From NCBI GenBank assembly GCA_945868435.1, contig CAMBLG010000007.1, forward strand, positions 1 through 64,000: 64,000 nt of DNA, given 5' to 3'. The position numbers and the translations under genes are program-made. The notes beneath the pieces were generated by a model. That model worked only from the letters and a program-made list of their open reading frames with translations. It was not told the origin of the DNA and made no database searches. Numbering within the stretch: the first letter of the stretch is position 1; the number at the start of each line of letters is the position of its first letter. Shown piece after piece: positions 4,203 to 25,710 of this stretch. The DNA comes from an uncultured Lachnospiraceae bacterium (GTDB taxonomy: Bacteria; Bacillota; Clostridia; Lachnospirales; Lachnospiraceae).

Positions 4203-5090
4203 ATGAGAAAACGAATGCAGAGAGCGGCAGTTCTGGTTATGGTTTTTTGCCTGTTGATTATGGGAAGCAGAGTGGGAGCGGATGCCAAGGTCATCCGTGC
4301 GAAAGCATCCGGTAAGGCTGTGAACGAGAATTCCCAGATGATTATTGACTATTCCAATATTTCTAAGGGATACGTCATGGTGAAATACAAGCAGTCTACC
4401 AAGGTGAAGCTGAAGGCACAGGTGGCATGCCCTACCGGTATTACCTATACATACAACCTGACGGCAAAGAAGTGGGCGACCTTTCCTTTGTCTGAGGGGA
4501 ATGGTGAGTATAAGGTCACCGTATACACGAATGTGTCCGGCAACAGTTATGCGACGGCGGGCTCCCAGAGTTTTAAAGTAAGTATGGACAATTCACTGTC
4601 TCCGTTTCTGATGGCGAACCAGTTCGTGGATTATACATCCAGCACCAAATGTGTCAAGAAGGCATCTTCTCTGTGCAAGAATGTCTCTGGGGAGATGAAG
4701 AAAGTCAAGAAGGTCTATGACTGGACCATTAAGACCATTAAGTATGACAAGGCAAAGGCGAAGACGGTTCAGAGTGGCTATCTTCCGAATCTGGATACGG
4801 TATATAAGAACAAGAAGGGAATCTGTTTCGACTATGCTGCGACGATGACCGCCATGCTTCGCAGTCAGGGGATACCCACCAAGCTGGTAATCGGTTATGC
4901 GGGCTCTGCTTATCACGCATGGATCAGCGTATATTCTGAGAAGGATGGCTGGATTGACAATGTGATCTATTTCGATGGAGAGAAGTGGAATCTGATGGAT
5001 CCAACATTTGCATCTTCTTCGAATTCCAGCCCGGCCATTATGGATTATATTGGCAATGGAAGTAATTATCAGGCAAAATATGCATATTAA
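4203..5090 (+). CDS. Secreted transglutaminase-like protein
   Basis: Start ATG 4203 follows GGGGAGGAA and opens a signal peptide (MRKRMQRAAVLVMVFCLLIM, then ADAK). An earlier in-frame ATG at 4095 would precede the promoter. The 295-residue protein has an N-terminal beta region (~30-140) and a C-terminal transglutaminase-like domain. The catalytic triad is visible: Cys208 in KGICFDYA, His238 in YHAW and Asp266 in LMDPTF. This fold covers transglutaminases and cysteine proteases or peptidases. In gut Firmicutes such secreted proteins are usually unassigned, so the substrate (cross-link or hydrolysis of surface protein) is open. It sits next to two wall-anchored proteins, which makes a role at the cell surface likely. 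Confidence 0.85.
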   Translation: MRKRMQRAAVLVMVFCLLIMGSRVGADAKVIRAKASGKAVNENSQMIIDYSNISKGYVMVKYKQSTKVKLKAQVACPTGITYTYNLTAKKWATFPLSEGNGEYKVTVYTNVSGNSYATAGSQSFKVSMDNSLSPFLMANQFVDYTSSTKCVKKASSLCKNVSGEMKKVKKVYDWTIKTIKYDKAKAKTVQSGYLPNLDTVYKNKKGICFDYAATMTAMLRSQGIPTKLVIGYAGSAYHAWISVYSEKDGWIDNVIYFDGEKWNLMDPTFASSSNSSPAIMDYIGNGSNYQAKYAY

Positions 5091-5107
5091 TGTAATAGTC
5101 CTTTATG

Positions 5108-18156: not shown

Positions 18157-20343
18157 ATGAAGATCATCAAGCGTAGTGGAAGCGAAGCAGTATTCGACAG
18201 CAACAAGATTATTGCGGCTGTGCAGAAGGCCAATGCATCGGTTATTGACTATGAGAAGCTTACAGAGCAGCAGATCAAGGAGATTGCGGCGAATGTGGAG
18301 ACCGCCTGTGAGAATATGAAGCGCTCCCCAAGCGTCGAGGAAATTCAGGATATGGTGGAGAACCAGCTGATGAATCAGCGGGCGTTTACGGTAGCCCGCA
18401 ATTACATTACCTACCGTTACAAGAGAGCACTGGTTCGTAAGTCCAATTCTACTGACGAGCAGATTTTAAGCCTTTTGGAATGTAATAATGAGGAAGTTAA
18501 GCAGGAGAATTCCAATAAGAATCCTACCGTCAACAGCGTGCAGCGTGACTATATGGCGGGAGAGGTAAGTAAGGATATTACAAAGCGTTTCCTGCTCCCG
18601 GAGGATGTTGTGGAGGCCCATGAGAAGGGCCTGATCCACTTCCATGATGCGGATTATTTTGCCCAGCATATGCACAACTGCTGTCTGGTCAACTTAGAGG
18701 ATATGCTTCAGAACGGAACGGTCATCAGTGAGACGATGATCGATCCGCCGAAGAGCTTCTCTACTGCCTGCAACATTGCCACACAGGCTATTGCGCAGAT
18801 CGCCAGTTCTCAGTATGGCGGACAGAGTATTTCCCTGTCCCACCTGGCTCCGTTTGTACAGGTCAGCCGTGAAAAGTTCCGTGCACAGGTGCGGGAGGAG
18901 TTTGAGGCGGTCGGGCTGGAACTGGATGAAGAGAAGATCAACGAGGTTGCAGAACTTCGGGTTAAGGAAGAGATTAACCGCGGTGTGCAGATGATCCAGT
19001 ATCAGGTCATTACACTTATGACCACAAACGGACAAGCGCCTTTTATCACAGTATTCATGTATCTGAATGAAGTGCCGGAGGGACAGACCAAGACGGACCT
19101 GGCAGCAATCATTGAGGAGATGCTGCACCAGAGAATTCAGGGTGTGAAGAATGAGAAGGGTGTGTACATTACACCGGCATTCCCGAAATTGATCTATGTG
19201 TTGGAGGAGGATAATATCCATGAGGATTCCAAGTACTGGTATCTGACCAAGCTTGCGGCACAGTGTTCCGCAAAGCGCCTTGTTCCGGATTATATCTCCG
19301 AGAAGAAGATGCTGGAACTGAAGGTGGACAAGAATGGCGAGGGACATTGTTATACCTGCATGGGCTGCCGGAGTTTCCTGACACCATATGTGGATCCGGA
19401 GACAAATCAGCCGAAGTACTACGGACGTTTCAATCAGGGCGTTGTTACTATTAATCTGGTGGATGTGGCATGTTCTTCCGAGGGGGATATGGACAAGTTC
19501 TGGAAGATCATGGATGAGCGTCTTGAGCTTTGCTACCGTGCACTGATGTGCAGACATAAGAGACTTCTAGGAACGCCGTCCGATGTGGCTCCGATTTTGT
19601 GGCAGAACGGTGCATTGGCGCGCTTGAAGAAGGGTGAGCCGATTGACAAGCTGTTGTTTGGCGGATATTCCACCATTTCTTTGGGATATGCGGGATTGTG
19701 TGAGTGTACACGTTATATGACAGGCGTATCGCACACTGATCCGGAGATTGGAACGCCGTTTGCATTACAGGTAATGCAGAGACTGAACGATGCTTGCGCA
19801 GAGTGGAAGGCAAAGGAGAACATCGATTTCAGTATCTATGGAACTCCGTTGGAGTCTACTACTTACAAGTTTGCAAAGTGCCTGCAGAAGAGATTTGGAA
19901 TTATCAAGGGTGTGACCGACCGCAACTACATTACGAACAGCTATCATGTTCATGTGACAGAGGAGATCAATGCTTTCGATAAGCTGAAGTTCGAGGCACA
20001 GTTCCAGCGTCTGTCACCGGGTGGAGCAATCAGCTATGTTGAGGTTCCGAACATGCAGAACAATATCGAGGCGGTATTGTCTGTGATGAAGTATATCTAT
20101 GATAATATCATGTACGCGGAGCTGAACACCAAGAGTGATTACTGCCAGTGCTGTGGCTATGACGGAGAGATTAAGATTGTGGAGGAAGAGGGAAGCGGCA
20201 AGCTGATCTGGGAATGCCCGAATTGCGGCAATCGGGATCAGGATCAGATGAGCGTTGCGCGTCGTACCTGCGGATATATCGGAACGCAGTTCTGGAATCA
20301 GGGTCGTACCCAGGAGATTAAGGAGCGCGTGCTGCACCTGTAA
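18157..20343 (+). CDS. nrdD: Anaerobic ribonucleoside-triphosphate reductase
   Basis: 728 residues. N-terminal ATP-cone domain (MKIIKRSGSEAVFDSNKIIA, to ~90), then the catalytic barrel with the conserved CMGCRSFL region and the C-terminal zinc ribbon (CQCCGYDG...ECPNCGN). The glycyl-radical loop is RRTCGYIGTQFW near the end. It reduces ribonucleoside triphosphates for DNA synthesis without oxygen and needs the NrdG activase to place the radical on Gly. AGAAGGAGAT precedes the ATG. Control by NrdR is indicated by the upstream boxes. Unusually, nrdG is 3.4 kb away, beyond three cohesin/sortase genes. Confidence 0.95.
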   Translation: MKIIKRSGSEAVFDSNKIIAAVQKANASVIDYEKLTEQQIKEIAANVETACENMKRSPSVEEIQDMVENQLMNQRAFTVARNYITYRYKRALVRKSNSTDEQILSLLECNNEEVKQENSNKNPTVNSVQRDYMAGEVSKDITKRFLLPEDVVEAHEKGLIHFHDADYFAQHMHNCCLVNLEDMLQNGTVISETMIDPPKSFSTACNIATQAIAQIASSQYGGQSISLSHLAPFVQVSREKFRAQVREEFEAVGLELDEEKINEVAELRVKEEINRGVQMIQYQVITLMTTNGQAPFITVFMYLNEVPEGQTKTDLAAIIEEMLHQRIQGVKNEKGVYITPAFPKLIYVLEEDNIHEDSKYWYLTKLAAQCSAKRLVPDYISEKKMLELKVDKNGEGHCYTCMGCRSFLTPYVDPETNQPKYYGRFNQGVVTINLVDVACSSEGDMDKFWKIMDERLELCYRALMCRHKRLLGTPSDVAPILWQNGALARLKKGEPIDKLLFGGYSTISLGYAGLCECTRYMTGVSHTDPEIGTPFALQVMQRLNDACAEWKAKENIDFSIYGTPLESTTYKFAKCLQKRFGIIKGVTDRNYITNSYHVHVTEEINAFDKLKFEAQFQRLSPGGAISYVEVPNMQNNIEAVLSVMKYIYDNIMYAELNTKSDYCQCCGYDGEIKIVEEEGSGKLIWECPNCGNRDQDQMSVARRTCGYIGTQFWNQGRTQEIKERVLHL

Positions 20344-20470: not shown

Positions 20471-21784
20471 ATGAGGACGAGTATGAAAAACAGATGGAAA
20501 AAAGTGTGCGCATTTGTTGTGGCGTTCGCATTGGTTCTGCCACTGGTGTGCGGACAGCAGATGACGGTGAAGGCGGCCACGCCAGAACCGTATTTGACAC
20601 TGGTGGCCGTTGATAGCAGCGGAGTTGATTTGACAGGGGGGACATCACTGGAGATTGGTGATACTGTTTCACTTGAGTTGCGTGCTACAGCGGAACTTGA
20701 AGCTTTGGGCGCATTCTCCAGTATTGAAGCATATCTGGATTATGATACGGAAAAGTTCAAACAGGTGACAACCTCTGACTTTATTCCGGCACAGGATTGG
20801 GCTGTGTACTGGGATGTGGAAAGTAATAAGGTAAACATCAGTACGACGACTGATAGTGCATTTTCTGATGGAGATGTAATCTGCACGTTGAAATTGACTG
20901 TGAAGAGTGCAGTAAACGGAAGTACAACCGTAGAATGGAACGGAGATCCGGTTGATCCGGATAAGAATATTGTTATTACACAGAGTGATAATGCGTCCCG
21001 ACAGGCTGAAGCAGTAAATGTTACTTGTACAGTAAGTAATACGGTAACAGAAGCTTCGCGTGTGTTTGAGTTGTCTGTTCCATCTAGTTTGACATTCTAC
21101 ACAGACACGCAAGGGCGTGAGAAAGAAATTGTTGTTCCGATTAAGATTGAGAACGGTTCTATCTATTGCGGTTTCCGGTTTGGCTTTACCTATAACACAA
21201 GTCTGGTAACGTACACGGGATATGAATTGTCAAGCTCTGCAGGTGCGTATGTCCAGTCCATGACTGTATCGGATGTCCCGAATAGTGGAGGCTTATATAC
21301 CCATAATGTTGCATTGGTATCTTCAAAAGATATCAATCTGGCAGGAGAGTTTATTTATTTGAAGTTTAAGACTTCCTCTGCAGTGGCTACCGGGACGGCA
21401 CCAACAGGTGGAAATATTACAATTACATTGTATGATGTGGTCAATGCGTCAAAGGCACCAATGACGTTTAAACTCGGAGGTTCTACTTCAACAACAACAG
21501 CAGGAACTGCAATCGAAACCAATATTTCCTTAAATTATACGCAACGTCAGGTGCATTATGGAGATGTCAACGGTGACGATAAAATTAATTTGATTGATGC
21601 GTTAATGATTATGCAGCATTACAATGGGGTTCGCACTTTGTCAAGTGTTGAGGGGGCTGGAGAAGTTGGATCAGAAATGGAACGTGCGGATGTAAATGGA
21701 TCCGGTACGGTAACCCTTGTAGATGCTCTTTTGATTATGAAGAAATATAACGGAGAGATTGCCGATTTCCCAATCAGAGGATAA
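20471..21784 (+). CDS. Secreted protein with two cohesin-like domains and a type I-like dockerin
   Basis: AAGGAG lies 9 bases before ATG 20471. 437 residues with signal peptide (KKVCAFVVAFALVLPLVCG, to ~37). Two ~140-residue beta domains follow. The first (~42-185) has EIGDTVSLELRA and FSSIEAYLDYDTEKF, as in cohesins; the second (~200-350) has GFRFGFTYNTSLVTYTGYEL. The C-terminus is a dockerin pair of calcium loops: GDVNGDDKINLIDALMIMQ (~364) and ADVNGSGTVTLVDALLIMK (~406), both with the D-x-N/D-x-D/S spacing and the LIDALxIM helix. Cohesin and dockerin modules bind each other in cellulosomes. Here there is no catalytic module, so it looks like an adaptor scaffoldin. Its likely partner, the anchored cohesin, is two genes downstream. 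Confidence 0.82.
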   Translation: MRTSMKNRWKKVCAFVVAFALVLPLVCGQQMTVKAATPEPYLTLVAVDSSGVDLTGGTSLEIGDTVSLELRATAELEALGAFSSIEAYLDYDTEKFKQVTTSDFIPAQDWAVYWDVESNKVNISTTTDSAFSDGDVICTLKLTVKSAVNGSTTVEWNGDPVDPDKNIVITQSDNASRQAEAVNVTCTVSNTVTEASRVFELSVPSSLTFYTDTQGREKEIVVPIKIENGSIYCGFRFGFTYNTSLVTYTGYELSSSAGAYVQSMTVSDVPNSGGLYTHNVALVSSKDINLAGEFIYLKFKTSSAVATGTAPTGGNITITLYDVVNASKAPMTFKLGGSTSTTTAGTAIETNISLNYTQRQVHYGDVNGDDKINLIDALMIMQHYNGVRTLSSVEGAGEVGSEMERADVNGSGTVTLVDALLIMKKYNGEIADFPIRG

Positions 21785-21811
21785 TGGAAGAGAATTATTA
21801 GAACACGGACA

Positions 21812-22870
21812 ATGGAAGAGAAAAAGCGAAGACAATACTCCCATTTGTACGAACAGCATTCCCCCGGAGCGGACAGCTTCCAAGGGGGTGGACAGAGTTC
21901 TTCGGAATCGGATGAATACCGGAAGGACGTAAAGGAAATTGAGAATATTTGTGCTCATCATGATCTGGATGATACACTTTCCAATCGAAAGCTGTACAAG
22001 AGCCTTAAGCGGGACAATGCTTTTTCCACATGGATTGGAGAAGCATTTCTGTTGGGGCTCTCCAGTCGGACGAGCAAAAGCCGCCATAGACGAACGATAG
22101 AGAAGGTATGCAAACGCATTGCTGTCTCTTTCTTAGCTATGGCGGTTGTACTGTTAATGACAGTGCTCTATTTTCAGATCAGAGAGGCGAAAGAAAGTGC
22201 CGTGCTGGAGTACATACGACAGGAGAAGGAACAACTGGCGCTGGCCGCCGAGAAAGAAAATGAAATAGGGGACTTTGGTTCAGTTGAAATTCTCGACCAA
22301 TATGCTATATTATATAGTATGTATCCGGATGTGGTCGGCTGGATAAAAGTAGATGGGACACCCATTGATTATCCGGTCATGCAGGATCGCACGGGAGAGG
22401 ATTACTACCTCAAACACAATTTTGAGGGGAAGGAAGACTCGAAGGGTGCGCCTTTTGTGGATGAGGATACGGTACTGGATCCGCTGGATGACAATATTGT
22501 GATTTACGGACATAATGTAAATGACGGAAGTCAGTTTGGGAATCTGGATTTGTATTTGGATCAGGACTTCTATGAGGAACATCCGATTATCTCGTTTGAT
22601 ACTATTTATGAGACCGGCACCTATCAGATCGTGGCTGTGGTGAAGACCAGAGTAAAGCAGGGAGACGAGTCTGGCTTTCGCTACTATTGGTTCCGCAACT
22701 ATGAGAACAGGGGCGAGTTCCAGGAACTTTTGGATTTTATTGAAGAGGGAAGCCTGTACGATACCGGCGAACACCTGAGGTATGGGGACAGTACCATTAT
22801 GCTGTCAACTTGTGAATATACGGTTGACAATGGAAGACTAGTGATAATTGCGAAGAGGATTGGCGAATGA
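21812..22870 (+). CDS. Class B-type sortase
   Basis: 352 residues. A long cytosolic N-terminus of ~95 residues, rich in charged residues, precedes one transmembrane helix (IAVSFLAMAVVLLMTVLYFQ). The sortase domain follows, with GWIKVDGTPIDYPVMQ, His234 in IYGHNV, Cys334 in LSTCEY and Arg342 in NGRLVIIAKR, so the catalytic triad is complete. The DGTPIDYPV and KGAPFVDED elements are typical of class B. It probably attaches the next gene's product (TPKTG signal) to the wall. ATG 21812 has only a weak ribosome site. The stop overlaps the next start (ATGA). Confidence 0.9.
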   Translation: MEEKKRRQYSHLYEQHSPGADSFQGGGQSSSESDEYRKDVKEIENICAHHDLDDTLSNRKLYKSLKRDNAFSTWIGEAFLLGLSSRTSKSRHRRTIEKVCKRIAVSFLAMAVVLLMTVLYFQIREAKESAVLEYIRQEKEQLALAAEKENEIGDFGSVEILDQYAILYSMYPDVVGWIKVDGTPIDYPVMQDRTGEDYYLKHNFEGKEDSKGAPFVDEDTVLDPLDDNIVIYGHNVNDGSQFGNLDLYLDQDFYEEHPIISFDTIYETGTYQIVAVVKTRVKQGDESGFRYYWFRNYENRGEFQELLDFIEEGSLYDTGEHLRYGDSTIMLSTCEYTVDNGRLVIIAKRIGE

Positions 22871-23751
22871 TGAAGAGAGTAAGAAAACTGTTAACCGGAA
22901 TTTTTATGGCGATGGTCCTGTGCTTGTGCATGTCACCGATGCAGGTGCAGGCAGCCAATATCAATGTGACGCTGGGGACCACGGACAATGCGAAGGCCGG
23001 TGACACGGTGACTGCCCGAATTGTGCTCAGCAACAATCCGGGAATCTCAACCTTTGCCATGAAGCTTGCCTATGACAGCAATTATCTGACTTATACAGGG
23101 GCAACATGGGCGAATTCCGTTTCTTCCAACAGCAATAATGTACAGTTGATTTCAGAGGTGACGGAGAATGGAGGACCGGTGCTCAATATTTCCTCGATTC
23201 TGGGTTCTACCTATTCCAACAACGAGACGATTGTAACTTTGAACTTTACCGTTAAGCAGAATTACACAACAATGCCGGTAACTTTGGCCAATCGCGAGAT
23301 CACGGACAGTAGTTATGCACCGGTGACAACCGGTATTGTGGTGGATGCCACAGCGGGGCAGAACAACAATAGCCAGAATAACAGCCAAAGTCAGAGCAAC
23401 AGCCAGAGTCAAAGTCAGAGTCAAAGTCAGAGCCAAAGCCAAAGTCAGAATAATAGTCAAAACAACAGTCAGAATAATAGTCAAAACAACAGTCAGAATA
23501 ATAGCCAGAATAATAGTCAGAATAATAGTCAGAACAATAATAACAGCCAGAGCGGCAATACGGATAACAATAGCGAGAATAGCAGCAACACAAATGGAAA
23601 TACGAATAGTAACTCTGATAAGGAAGGTTTGGATAAGACGCCTAAGACCGGAGCAATCGATATCCGATTCCTGTTGGGGGCGGCAATTGTTGTATTTCTC
23701 GTAATTGCGGCTGGTTGTATTCGTTTTCTTGGCAAGAAGAGGGTATCATGA
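22867..23751 (+). CDS. Cell-wall-anchored single-cohesin protein (anchoring scaffoldin-like)
   Basis: 294 residues: signal peptide (LLTGIFMAMVLCLCMS, cut after VQAA), one cohesin-like domain (~28-160) with AGDTVTARIVLSNNPGISTF and MKLAYDSNYLTYTGA, a Ser/Gln/Asn stalk (~165-240), then TPKTGAID, a transmembrane helix and KKR. TPKTG is the sorting signal. The protein would display one cohesin on the cell wall, ready to hold a dockerin such as that of the gene two places upstream. Start and stop both overlap neighbours by ATGA (sortase before, nrdG after), so translation is coupled in a row. Confidence 0.85.
   Translation: MMKRVRKLLTGIFMAMVLCLCMSPMQVQAANINVTLGTTDNAKAGDTVTARIVLSNNPGISTFAMKLAYDSNYLTYTGATWANSVSSNSNNVQLISEVTENGGPVLNISSILGSTYSNNETIVTLNFTVKQNYTTMPVTLANREITDSSYAPVTTGIVVDATAGQNNNSQNNSQSQSNSQSQSQSQSQSQSQSQNNSQNNSQNNSQNNSQNNSQNNSQNNSQNNNNSQSGNTDNNSENSSNTNGNTNSNSDKEGLDKTPKTGAIDIRFLLGAAIVVFLVIAAGCIRFLGKKRVS
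23361..23562 (+). repeat. Ser-Gln / Asn-rich tandem codon repeat
   Basis: Short units such as AGTCAGAGCCAA followed by AATAATAGTCAAAACAAC recur many times and encode SQSQ and NNSQNNSQ. They form the stalk of the anchored cohesin. The near-identical units could vary in number between strains. Confidence 0.85.
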
Positions 23752-24269
23752 ATTACGCAGGAATAAAGTATTGTGACATTGCTAATGGATTGGGCTGTCG
23801 AACCGTGTTGTTCGTCTCCGGCTGCAGGAATGCCTGCAAGGGGTGCTTCCAACCACAGACCTGGGACTTCCATTACGGGGAACCGTTTGATGAGAAGGCG
23901 CAGGAGGAGGTCCTGCATTCCCTCGAAGCGGATTACGTGCAGGGAATCACACTGCTGGGCGGAGAGCCCTTCGAGGAGGAGAATCAGGCGGCACTGGTTC
24001 CGTTTATGCGTCGAGTTCGGGAGCAGTATCCCAATAAGGATGTATGGGCGTTTACCGGATATATTTATGATAAGGATCTGATTCCGGGAGGGCGCAAGTA
24101 CACAGAATATACGGATGAACTACTATCGATGATCGATATTTTGGTAGATGGACCTTTTATGGAGGAACTGAAGGATATTACTCTGAAATTCCGCGGTTCC
24201 AGGAATCAGAGAGTCATTGACTTGCAAAAGACGATACAATGTGGCAAAATATGTTTGGCTATGGATTAA
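23748..24269 (+). CDS. nrdG: Anaerobic ribonucleotide reductase activating protein
   Basis: ATG 23748 overlaps the preceding stop and gives the normal family N-terminus MNYAGIKYCDIANG; an in-frame start 33 bases earlier would lie inside the cohesin gene. 173 residues of the radical-SAM family with the 4Fe-4S motif CRNACKGC (Cys26, 30, 33) and the LLGGEPF region. It uses S-adenosylmethionine to form the glycyl radical on NrdD. Its only close promoter candidates are those of nrdD or of the cohesin cassette, so its supply appears tied to that cassette. Confidence 0.94.
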   Translation: MNYAGIKYCDIANGLGCRTVLFVSGCRNACKGCFQPQTWDFHYGEPFDEKAQEEVLHSLEADYVQGITLLGGEPFEEENQAALVPFMRRVREQYPNKDVWAFTGYIYDKDLIPGGRKYTEYTDELLSMIDILVDGPFMEELKDITLKFRGSRNQRVIDLQKTIQCGKICLAMD

Positions 24270-24293: not shown

Positions 24294-24602
24294 ATGAAAA
24301 AGCAGATTAAGTCGGTATTGGGGTTGATTTGCTATGGATTTGGTATAGTGTTTGCAACATATGTGGGATTGTGGCAGATGATCTGTCGGCCGTTGGGAGC
24401 AATCTACTTTGCATTCGTGAATGGGGAACTTACGCTTTCTTTGATTATTGCGTGTGCAATTAAGATTCTTTTCTCCACAACGCTGGCAGGATTGATCTGG
24501 TGTATTGGATATATTGGTTACAATCATTTTAAGGGAACCGAGGACCCGGATTGGGAGGTCCTTGAGGAGCAAAGGAGATATCGTGATTCTACGAGTGCCT
24601 GA
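24294..24602 (+). CDS. Small membrane protein of unknown function
   Basis: 102 residues, AGAGGAG before the ATG. Two or three hydrophobic helices (VLGLICYGFGIVFATYVGLW; LIIACAIKILFSTTLAGLIW) and a hydrophilic tail. No motif that I recognise. It overlaps the following fliB-like gene by 20 bases, and the ribosome site of that gene lies inside this one, so they are expressed together. Confidence 0.65.
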   Translation: MKKQIKSVLGLICYGFGIVFATYVGLWQMICRPLGAIYFAFVNGELTLSLIIACAIKILFSTTLAGLIWCIGYIGYNHFKGTEDPDWEVLEEQRRYRDSTSA

Positions 24603-25710
24603 TTATTATGATGAATTTTCCTGTATTGCAGGGGAATGTACCGGAAGCTGTTGCGACGGCTGGGAGATTGACATTGATGATGCAACGAGGGAATATTACA
24701 GCCAGGTTCCTGACGAAATCGGAGAACGGCTGAGAGACAAGCTATATAAAGGAGAGGACGGCGAATATCGCTTCCGATTGGGGGAGCATGGACGATGTCC
24801 TTTTTTGAATGACGACAATTTGTGCGATATTATCATTGCGCTGGGAGAGGAGGCTCTCAGTGAGGTGTGTACCGATTTCCCGCGTTTTGCGTTGTCGTAT
24901 GGACATGTGATGCAACGGATTTTGAGCGTATCCTGTGAGGAGGTCGGCCGCATAATATTATCCAGAACGGAGCCGGTTAAGTTTGTGGAGAGAAGTATGC
25001 CGGATTGCATGGAGGATTGGGAGGACGAGGAAGCGGATGACGCCTATATTGCTTTCCTGGAAACCATTCAGAATCGGGCAATTGCAATATTGCAGGATCG
25101 GAGCAAGCCCATTTCAGAGCGTATCGCCCTGTTTCTGGGATTGTGCGAAAAGGCGCAGGAGGGCATTAACCAGTATGGAATGGATGAGGATGCTGCAATC
25201 CTCACCGACACGCTTGCAGAACTGGAACCTCCCAATGTATCCACCAATTTCCGCGTAGAGGATTGGGAACGGGGCAAAGATGCACAGAAGCTGTACGAAG
25301 CCTTTGATATTCGCTGGGCAATCCTGGAAGAATTGGAGGAACTGGGAGAAGAGTGGGTTGCCACGAAGAAGCGGGTTCGTAAGGTGCTTACGGAGGAAAA
25401 TTATGCCGAGCGGAGGGAAGCCTTCATGGCTTCAGATGCGTATGATGCCATCGTCTATGAGCAGCTGCTTGTGTATTTTGCATTCCGCTACCTGATGCAG
25501 GCGGTATATAGCTGTGATCTGTTGGCATATGGGAAGATGATCGTCAGTTTTGCGCTGATGGTGCGGGATCTTGATCTCATGTGTTGGACGGAGAACGGAG
25601 GAATCTATGAGTTGAAGCAGAGAACGCGTATGGCGTACATATTCTCCAGAGAAGTAGAGCACTCGGAAGAAAACTTTGAACAGATTCGTGAAGAATTGAT
25701 GTTTGAATAA
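24583..25710 (+). CDS. fliB: Flagellin lysine-N-methylase, FliB family
   Basis: GTG 24583 is chosen: AAGGAG lies 5 bases before it and the product then begins MILRVPDYYDEFSC, where family members begin. An in-frame ATG 78 bases earlier lies well inside the previous gene. 375 residues. The Cys clusters of the family are present: CIAGECTGSCC near the N-terminus and CPFLNDDNLC plus the following CTDFPR. FliB methylates lysines of flagellin. No flagellar structural gene is in this window, but a chemoreceptor is (42.9 kb), which suggests a motile cell. Confidence 0.85.
   Translation: MILRVPDYYDEFSCIAGECTGSCCDGWEIDIDDATREYYSQVPDEIGERLRDKLYKGEDGEYRFRLGEHGRCPFLNDDNLCDIIIALGEEALSEVCTDFPRFALSYGHVMQRILSVSCEEVGRIILSRTEPVKFVERSMPDCMEDWEDEEADDAYIAFLETIQNRAIAILQDRSKPISERIALFLGLCEKAQEGINQYGMDEDAAILTDTLAELEPPNVSTNFRVEDWERGKDAQKLYEAFDIRWAILEELEELGEEWVATKKRVRKVLTEENYAERREAFMASDAYDAIVYEQLLVYFAFRYLMQAVYSCDLLAYGKMIVSFALMVRDLDLMCWTENGGIYELKQRTRMAYIFSREVEHSEENFEQIREELMFE

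Follow-up and report, generated by a model that had tools for sequence, protein, structure and literature searches.

Does a set of cohesin, dockerin and sortase genes lying between nrdD and nrdG belong to a cellulosome, or does it serve another kind of surface display? The question is raised by a 64,000-nucleotide stretch of the draft genome of an uncultured Lachnospiraceae bacterium (positions 1 to 64,000 of contig CAMBLG010000007.1, assembly GCA_945868435.1), here called the window. The open reading frame list of the window has three frames on the + strand, P1, P2 and P3, packed between nrdD and nrdG. A sequence-only reading had described them as a complete display kit, and the three adjacent genes with the domains, sortase and anchor signal that it named were borne out by Pfam searches and the reading frames. 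Based on sequence comparisons, we lean, with confidence a little above even, towards a non-cellulosomal display in which P3 would be the socket, the P1 dockerin the plug and the P1 cohesins variable parts turned outward. What the sequences show directly is the order of the genes, their domains, the sorting signal, the co-occurrence and the contrast in conservation; the P1-P3 contact, anchoring by P2, the orientation and the role of the outer modules are inferred. The genes and their parts are the following.

20471 to 21784, + strand: P1, secreted cohesin-cohesin-dockerin protein, 437 amino acids (reading frame and domain matches)
20471 to 20575, + strand: P1 signal peptide, approximately residues 1-35 (translation judged by eye)
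20642 to 20986, + strand: P1 cohesin module 1 (PF00963, genome search 37.5 bits, isolated domain 38.6 bits)
21122 to 21445, + strand: P1 cohesin module 2 (PF00963, 20.2 and 20.0 bits, under the cut-off)
21557 to 21745, + strand: P1 type I dockerin with two repeats (PF00404, 51.8 bits in the genome search, 52.7 for the isolated domain)
21812 to 22870, + strand: P2, class B sortase, 352 amino acids, with His234, Cys334 and Arg342 (profiles and alignment)
22867 to 23751, + strand: P3, predicted wall-anchored single-cohesin protein, 294 amino acids (reading frame and PF00963 match)
22960 to 23331, + strand: P3 cohesin (PF00963, genome search 44.9 bits, isolated domain 46.2 bits)
23362 to 23637, + strand: P3 low-complexity Ser/Gln/Asn stalk, varying in composition among relatives
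23638 to 23748, + strand: P3 sorting signal (TPKTG at 23638-23652, membrane segment, basic tail)

Domains of P1 and P3

Searches with hidden Markov models placed the domains in the cohesin and dockerin families, the exception being P1 module 2, which on its own reached 20.0 bits against the PF00963 cut-off of 24.1 bits. Module 1 and the P3 cohesin (46.2 bits) lay above that cut-off, and the P1 dockerin lay above that of PF00404 (22.9 bits); two calcium-loop-like repeats were recognized in the dockerin by eye. For each P1 module a profile was built from 12 relatives; at E <= 0.01 that of cohesin 1 matched 11 Protein Data Bank (PDB) sequences (best E 7e-6) and that of cohesin 2 matched 12 (best E 8e-8), chains which, judging from the names given by their depositors, we take to be cohesins. 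The two profiles also matched that of the P3 cohesin (E 3e-8 and 1e-7), the match between modules 1 and 2 being weaker (E 1e-4, probability 58%). With hmmscan, full-length P1 and P3 gave no PF00963 match at E <= 0.1, although the dockerin and the sortase did match; the miss is ascribed to the composition filter, because matches do appear with the isolated domains and in the search of the whole genome. No catalytic domain was recognized in P1 by Pfam, either in the full-length protein or in its isolated domains. At least two cohesins in one protein have been used as a criterion for cellulosomes (PMC11557425), and P1 carries two.

P3 begins with a signal peptide, which is followed by the cohesin and a Ser/Gln/Asn-rich stalk; it ends in TPKTG with a membrane segment and a basic tail behind it. 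The TPKTG sorting signal described from sequence is present in all its parts. The Ser/Gln stalk described alongside it was also found in P3, but its make-up is not conserved and is acidic in some relatives. TPKTG occurs in 10 of the 11 P3 proteins of the genus sample described below and is replaced by TFKTG in the remaining one; a hydrophobic stretch and a basic end follow. In the whole draft genome 24 sites fit codons for PKTG, three of which were judged by eye to be C-terminal sorting signals, and that of P3 is the only TPKTG among them, the others being SPKTG and NPKTG.

Other genera of the family also seem to have anchored single-cohesin proteins. A simple motif search revealed no sortase in the 29 short loci scanned, a weak result because these loci span approximately 3 kb.

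The sortase

P2 matched Pfam PF04203 with 40 bits (cut-off 26.6) and the NCBIfam class B sortase model TIGR03064 at E 1.3e-44, its 152.3 bits lying slightly below the cut-off of 153.75. Solved SrtB structures were matched at E 6e-40, and the active-site residues His234, Cys334 and Arg342 were invariant across 10 aligned sequences; this agrees with the class B sortase and full catalytic triad read from the sequence. When 80 sortase loci were kept out of 369 found, P3 adjoined the sortase in all 10 with a P2 identity of at least 58%, and no P3 match was present in the other 70. These ten loci are the 10 other cassette genomes, on the same contigs.

Residues 1-95 of P2 (21812-22100) form a conserved pre-membrane segment with no Pfam match above cut-off. 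The orthologue in Roseburia faecis (L074) is without most of this segment, and some P2 orthologues therefore manage without it.

Co-occurrence of P1-type proteins with P3

The genus sample comprised 62 genomes, that of the window included. The P3 cohesin was found in 11 of them, with P2 beside P3 in every case, and P2 and P3 are the core of the cassette. P1 lies within the cassette in four (the window's own genome, G204, G231 and G268), so that of the supposed complete kit of three genes the P2/P3 pair holds, and P1 is at this place in just 4 of 11.

Full-length P1-type proteins, scoring 367-442 bits with the next best match at 59 bits, were identified in nine of the 62 genomes, all of them among the 11 with P3. 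The two P3 genomes in which no P1-type protein was found, G223 and G200, have the lowest completeness of the 11 (75% and 73%). Over the genus this amounts to 9 of 11 cassette genomes against 0 of 51 others (Fisher's exact p 2.7e-9). In a tree of NrdG (58 rows) nine of the 11 cassette genomes fell in one clade of 14 (support 90/93), and inside this clade P1-type proteins were present in 8 of 9 cassette genomes against 0 of 5 others (p 0.003). The tree requires six gains or losses of the cassette, three of which are forced by well supported branches; nrdG has seemingly been exchanged in G277 and G278, which limits its use.

A P1-type gene lies near ilvN-ilvC in seven genomes, including that of the window. 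In a tree of 13 P1-type proteins, those of the nrd-type and the ilv-type were split by a branch with support 97/98, and two copies from a third place in G268 fell in neither group. P1 alone, used as the query against the contigs of relatives, found none of them, and the sortase alignment did; this failure is probably due to divergence of the P1 cohesins that is too fast for such a search.

Unequal conservation within P1

Over ten genome pairs with an ilv-type P1, identity was 25.1% for cohesin 1, 28.7% for cohesin 2 and 61.5% for the dockerin; in the same pairs P2 was 66.5% and the P3 cohesin 68.4% identical. In three pairs with an nrd-type P1 and a whole P3 the modules were 25.1 and 29.2%, the dockerin 60.6% and P2 64.3% identical. 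When 12 P1-type proteins of both kinds were compared in a first estimate (66 pairs), the modules were 18.9 and 21.0% and the dockerin 54.6% identical. The P1 dockerin is slightly more than twice as conserved as the rest of the protein. This contrast is not general to the dockerin proteins of the genus, because the parts of glucosaminidase-type proteins evolve alike: in five of these, taken from another set of genomes, the dockerin was 67.8% and the rest 64.1% identical.

The dockerins also differ in type at the first of the two positions presumed to serve recognition. Leucine was found there in all 24 repeats of 12 P1-type dockerins (a thirteenth, from G275, is a near-copy of that of G274 and was left out of the count). 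In six dockerins of the other type (12 repeats) the position is occupied by valine in nine, alanine in two and glutamate in one, and never by leucine. In cellulosomal dockerins this position sets specificity, and it may do so here.

Other dockerins and cohesins of the genome

The draft genome (2.57 Mb, 83.7% complete) has three dockerins at E <= 0.1. The earlier reading had proposed a search for others, and besides P1 there are two further dockerin proteins: a P1 paralogue of 395 residues (cohesin-cohesin-dockerin) near ilvN-ilvC, genes named by eye, and a protein of 582 residues with a SagB-like glucosaminidase region (65.7 bits, far below the model cut-off of 425), a cadherin-like domain and a dockerin. 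None of the three dockerins in this 83.7% complete genome belongs to a plant-polysaccharide enzyme. PF00963 matched four times, in the three cassette modules and once in the ilv-locus paralogue. Throughout the genus, dockerin matches occur in 50 of the 62 genomes; glucosaminidase-type dockerins are present with or without the cassette, and in several genomes (e.g. G233, G218) a PF00963 match lies directly beside one.

It had been proposed that the two P1 cohesins are free for other dockerin proteins. Two such proteins do exist, but one is the P1 paralogue, and the other, which is glucosaminidase-like, has a dockerin with a different residue at the presumed recognition position; moreover, the P1 cohesins change far faster than that of P3. 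That they hold other dockerin proteins is weakly supported.

On contig C25 (L009:4940-8803) the glucosaminidase-like dockerin protein adjoins a membrane protein with a cadherin-like domain, and the same gene order was seen in L149 and L150. The N-terminus of this membrane protein in L009 looks cohesin-like by eye and has no Pfam cohesin match. Of twenty further stretches collected, genes were listed for twelve (L142-L153), and L158, L159 and L161 entered the dockerin comparison, L154-L157 and L160 being left out.

A proposed mechanism and its alternatives

In the display proposed here P2 would join P3 to the peptidoglycan at TPKTG, so that the one conserved P3 cohesin would stand out on a flexible stalk. 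Nrd-type and ilv-type P1 proteins, made from unlinked loci, would plug their conserved dockerin into this cohesin, and their two fast-evolving cohesin folds would face outward as the variable end. The outer modules may bind something other than the bacterium's own enzymes, in an adhesive or receptor role; such binding of a variable outside ligand is the most tentative part of the model. A conserved plug and socket would fit the slow change seen in the dockerin and, for most pairs, in the P3 cohesin. More tentatively, and with confidence short of even, the whole might be seen as an enzyme-free display run from two loci, where a private sortase provides a standard P3 socket and exchangeable, diversifying heads alter surface binding with the anchor unchanged.

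That the P1 dockerin docks on the P3 cohesin was already proposed from the window alone. Co-occurrence and selective conservation lend this indirect support, but several observations weigh against it and against the display built upon it. In the three nrd-type pairs the P3 cohesin (49.5% identity) was less conserved than the dockerin (60.6%), and the match of its profile to PDB cohesins was weak (best E 0.02). The fast change of the P1 cohesins could equally follow from relaxed constraint. The count of nine P1-type genomes is not fully independent, the P1 profile having been built from the sequences that it recovers, which were first picked by a dockerin search. The clade of 14 was chosen for the second test after the tree had been seen, and kinship of the 11 genomes accounts for part of the co-occurrence, the support of that clade being just 90/93. 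At 83.7% completeness, further dockerins or partners may also be missing from the genome of the window.

The full model of the earlier reading amounts to a small scaffoldin in the usual sense: P1 would sit on P3 and its cohesins would hold further dockerin proteins. These could include the paralogue, by growth of a chain, or the glucosaminidase-like protein, so that wall enzymes or chains of P1 were held on the surface. Both P1 modules are cohesins by profile, the genome has two other dockerins, one with a SagB-like glucosaminidase region, and in Ruminococcus bromii the cohesin and dockerin of Amy4 may let that protein self-aggregate (PMC5814915). A cohesin that holds a conserved dockerin should itself be conserved, and for this reason it weighs against such a scaffoldin that the P1 cohesins are 25-29% identical where the P1 dockerin reaches about 61% and the glucosaminidase-type dockerin, in its other genome set, 67.8%. 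Moreover, glucosaminidase-type dockerins occur without the cassette too, the PF00963 matches beside them in G233 and G218 suggest a partner of their own, and the genome barely offers partners for the P1 cohesins; we regard this model as unlikely, though deserving a share of our confidence.

Still less probable, in our judgement, is that P1 and P3 are separate surface proteins whose cohesin folds are shared by ancestry, P3 being an adhesin or binding another ligand and the P1 dockerin having another partner or none. That 7 of the 11 cassettes are without P1, and that two cassette genomes show no P1-type protein, would agree with such a separation, as would the cohesins known outside cellulosomes and the match of the P1 cohesin 1 profile to cohesin structures of Clostridium perfringens NagJ (E 0.003-0.004). 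Against it stand the finding of P1-type proteins solely in P3 genomes (9 of 9, and within the clade 8 of 9 against 0 of 5) and the fact that the dockerin is the conserved part of P1. As for a remnant or piece of an ordinary cellulosome, whose dockerin enzymes were lost or lie in the unassembled 16% of the genome, the incomplete draft (83.7%) leaves it some room; the cassette genomes G225 and G275, which are 98-99% complete, have two dockerin matches each, and we consider this origin very improbable. One of the two is P1-type; the frame that holds the other, of 588 and 584 residues respectively, has the length of the glucosaminidase type, that of G275 having been compared with this type and that of G225 assigned by length. 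The cellulosome reading was rejected, no set of dockerin enzymes having been found in the window's own genome, as far as it is assembled, or by the dockerin search of the genus.

Relation to known systems

Cohesin-dockerin pairs are known mainly as parts for assembling enzymes. NagJ of C. perfringens, an O-GlcNAcase, has a cohesin outside any cellulosome, as P1 does, but P1 is without a recognized catalytic domain. Roseburia faecis is a common human gut commensal, and such gut bacteria make butyrate. In its relatives studied here cohesin-dockerin parts lie beside their own sortase, no enzyme set was found with them, and the proposed plug and socket stay constant where the heads vary. Should binding be confirmed, this would be a simple and testable example of modular display on the surface of butyrate-producing gut bacteria, and would provide a new cohesin-dockerin pair.

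The arrangement resembles the anchored cohesin and adaptor of Ruminococcus, with no dockerin enzymes for plant polysaccharides found and with a sortase of its own. Anchoring scaffoldins of Ruminococcus are often linked by sortase (PMC11557425), ScaB docks on the cell-surface protein ScaE (PMC5934362), and a single cohesin of R. albus has been proposed as an anchor for dockerin enzymes (PMC6118326). As with these surface cohesins (ScaE of R. flavefaciens, Sca2 and Sca5 of R. bromii, and that of R. albus), a cohesin fixed at the surface would receive dockerin proteins. In Ruminococcus there are many dockerin enzymes, whereas here dockerins are few and two of the three are on cohesin proteins; the sortase gene here lies beside its presumed substrate, and the genus differs. 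The architecture of a ScaE-like anchored cohesin with an adaptor is thus present, the P1-P3 contact being suggested by co-occurrence and conservation. P1 itself, with several cohesins and a dockerin, has the layout of polyvalent adaptor scaffoldins such as ScaC of R. flavefaciens (PMC11557425), but its cohesins vary widely among close relatives and the searches revealed no set of dockerin enzymes to match them.

A 2024 survey describes "scaffoldin-containing" microbes whose scaffoldins each have few cohesins and in which dockerin enzymes that degrade cellulose are almost absent, among them P. guangzhouensis, where nearly all dockerins are on cohesin proteins, and Lachnoclostridium sp. MSJ-17, whose single-cohesin proteins have C-terminal transmembrane helices (PMC11557425). 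The system of the window is like these in its few cohesins per scaffoldin and few or no cellulose-degrading dockerin enzymes, and unlike them in scale, since they reach 39 dockerin or 35 cohesin proteins (PMC11557425). A word search of the main text of the survey gave neither "Lachnospir" nor "Roseburia" (PMC11557425). The system is named nowhere among the matches listed in the open literature, a set to which most subscription papers do not belong.

The sorting motif has a near counterpart in Clostridium difficile, where the class B sortase SrtB acts on substrates with (S/P)PXTG motifs and cleaves both SPKTG and PPKTG, which are close to TPKTG (PMC4155245). In the C. difficile strain one sortase serves a range of substrates (PMC4155245); here there are three PKTG-type signals differing in their first residue, and P2 adjoins the only TPKTG found, unlike that single-sortase arrangement.

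Genomic setting and transcription

The genes flanking the cassette are as follows.

18157 to 20343, + strand: nrdD, anaerobic ribonucleoside-triphosphate reductase (PF13597, 659.5 bits)
23748 to 24269, + strand: nrdG (ATG at 23748)

The overlaps noted earlier between the cassette genes are of 4 bases each, at P2/P3 and between the P3 stop and the nrdG start. Tight packing of P1, P2 and P3 suggests a single transcript. A promoter and terminator scan stayed at chance level (17 against 11.3 +/- 4.2; 7 against 4.8 +/- 2.2). It was also correctly stated that no glycoside hydrolase for plant polysaccharide is present at the cassette.

The order nrdD-cassette-nrdG, also described beforehand, was found whole on one contig in eight of the 11 cassette genomes (the window's own, G208, G223, G200, G225, G274, G275 and G268). 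The contig of G204 starts just before P1; in G231 the cassette is spread over two contigs taken as neighbours, with no nrdD in the 8.4 kb that precede P1. G277 has the gene order nrdD-nrdG-P2-P3. The further claim that the cassette splits a pair which usually stays together needs correction, as the pair does not always do so. Among 57 fetched loci of relatives (one per genome), nrdD and nrdG were adjacent in 27, including G277, and are often apart without the cassette: other genes lay between them in six, one had another orientation, and nrdD was not seen in the fetched stretch in 14, some of which are cut by contig ends. The cassette was directly upstream of nrdG in nine. Its nrdD-nrdG setting may be incidental; since the cassette adjoins nrdG in 11 of 11 genomes, co-expression with the anaerobic reductase is still possible.

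In L132 (G278) and L135 (G277) nrdG is 51-53% identical to that of the window and the adjoining nrdD 93-94%, which suggests replacement of nrdG by a foreign copy in these two genomes. Downstream of nrdG in the window, at 24294-25710, a small membrane protein is followed by a CxxCxxCC-type protein (PF03692, 17.3 bits, under the cut-off of 23), and similar genes trail nrdG in many of the listed relative loci.

At the ilv locus a small CxxCG zinc-ribbon membrane protein is encoded right next to the ilv-type P1, between it and ilvN, in L142, L143, L144, L146, L147 and L148; in the window's own genome (L008) such a protein lies one gene off the ilv-type P1, on the opposite side. The third place in G268 (L145) has tandem P1-type genes, away from both ilvN-ilvC and the cassette, beside a LacI-type regulator recognized by eye.

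Other sortase loci

In six loci of relatives in the genus without the cassette (L075, L077-L081) the neighbour of a sister class B sortase is a long secreted-type protein, which in L075 is truncated where the contig stops. Five of the six also have, next to the sortase, a protein whose end resembles TPKTG, TPSTG or TPTTG, and rpsL (by eye) is nearby in those five. The sister sortases have a similar pre-membrane segment by eye. P3 matched none of the six loci, which by their sequence appear to hold the same kind of sortase-substrate pair with different cargo. In L172 the sortase is 38% identical and its neighbour is an acidic protein of 205 residues with no Pfam match.

A different surface cassette with a class B sortase lies 5' of nrdG in L091 (G215), where nrdD was not seen within 8 kb upstream. 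It encodes a 202-residue protein ending in SPKTN and a membrane segment, a secreted protein of 631 residues, and a lipoprotein-like protein that has an RsgI-like domain and many CxxC-type repeats. On a contig of a Ruminococcus metagenome-assembled genome (L238), a dockerin-like stretch at 521-703 is 33% identical to the P1 dockerin (E 1e-6) and lies less than 4 kb from a distant class B sortase at 4483-5106.

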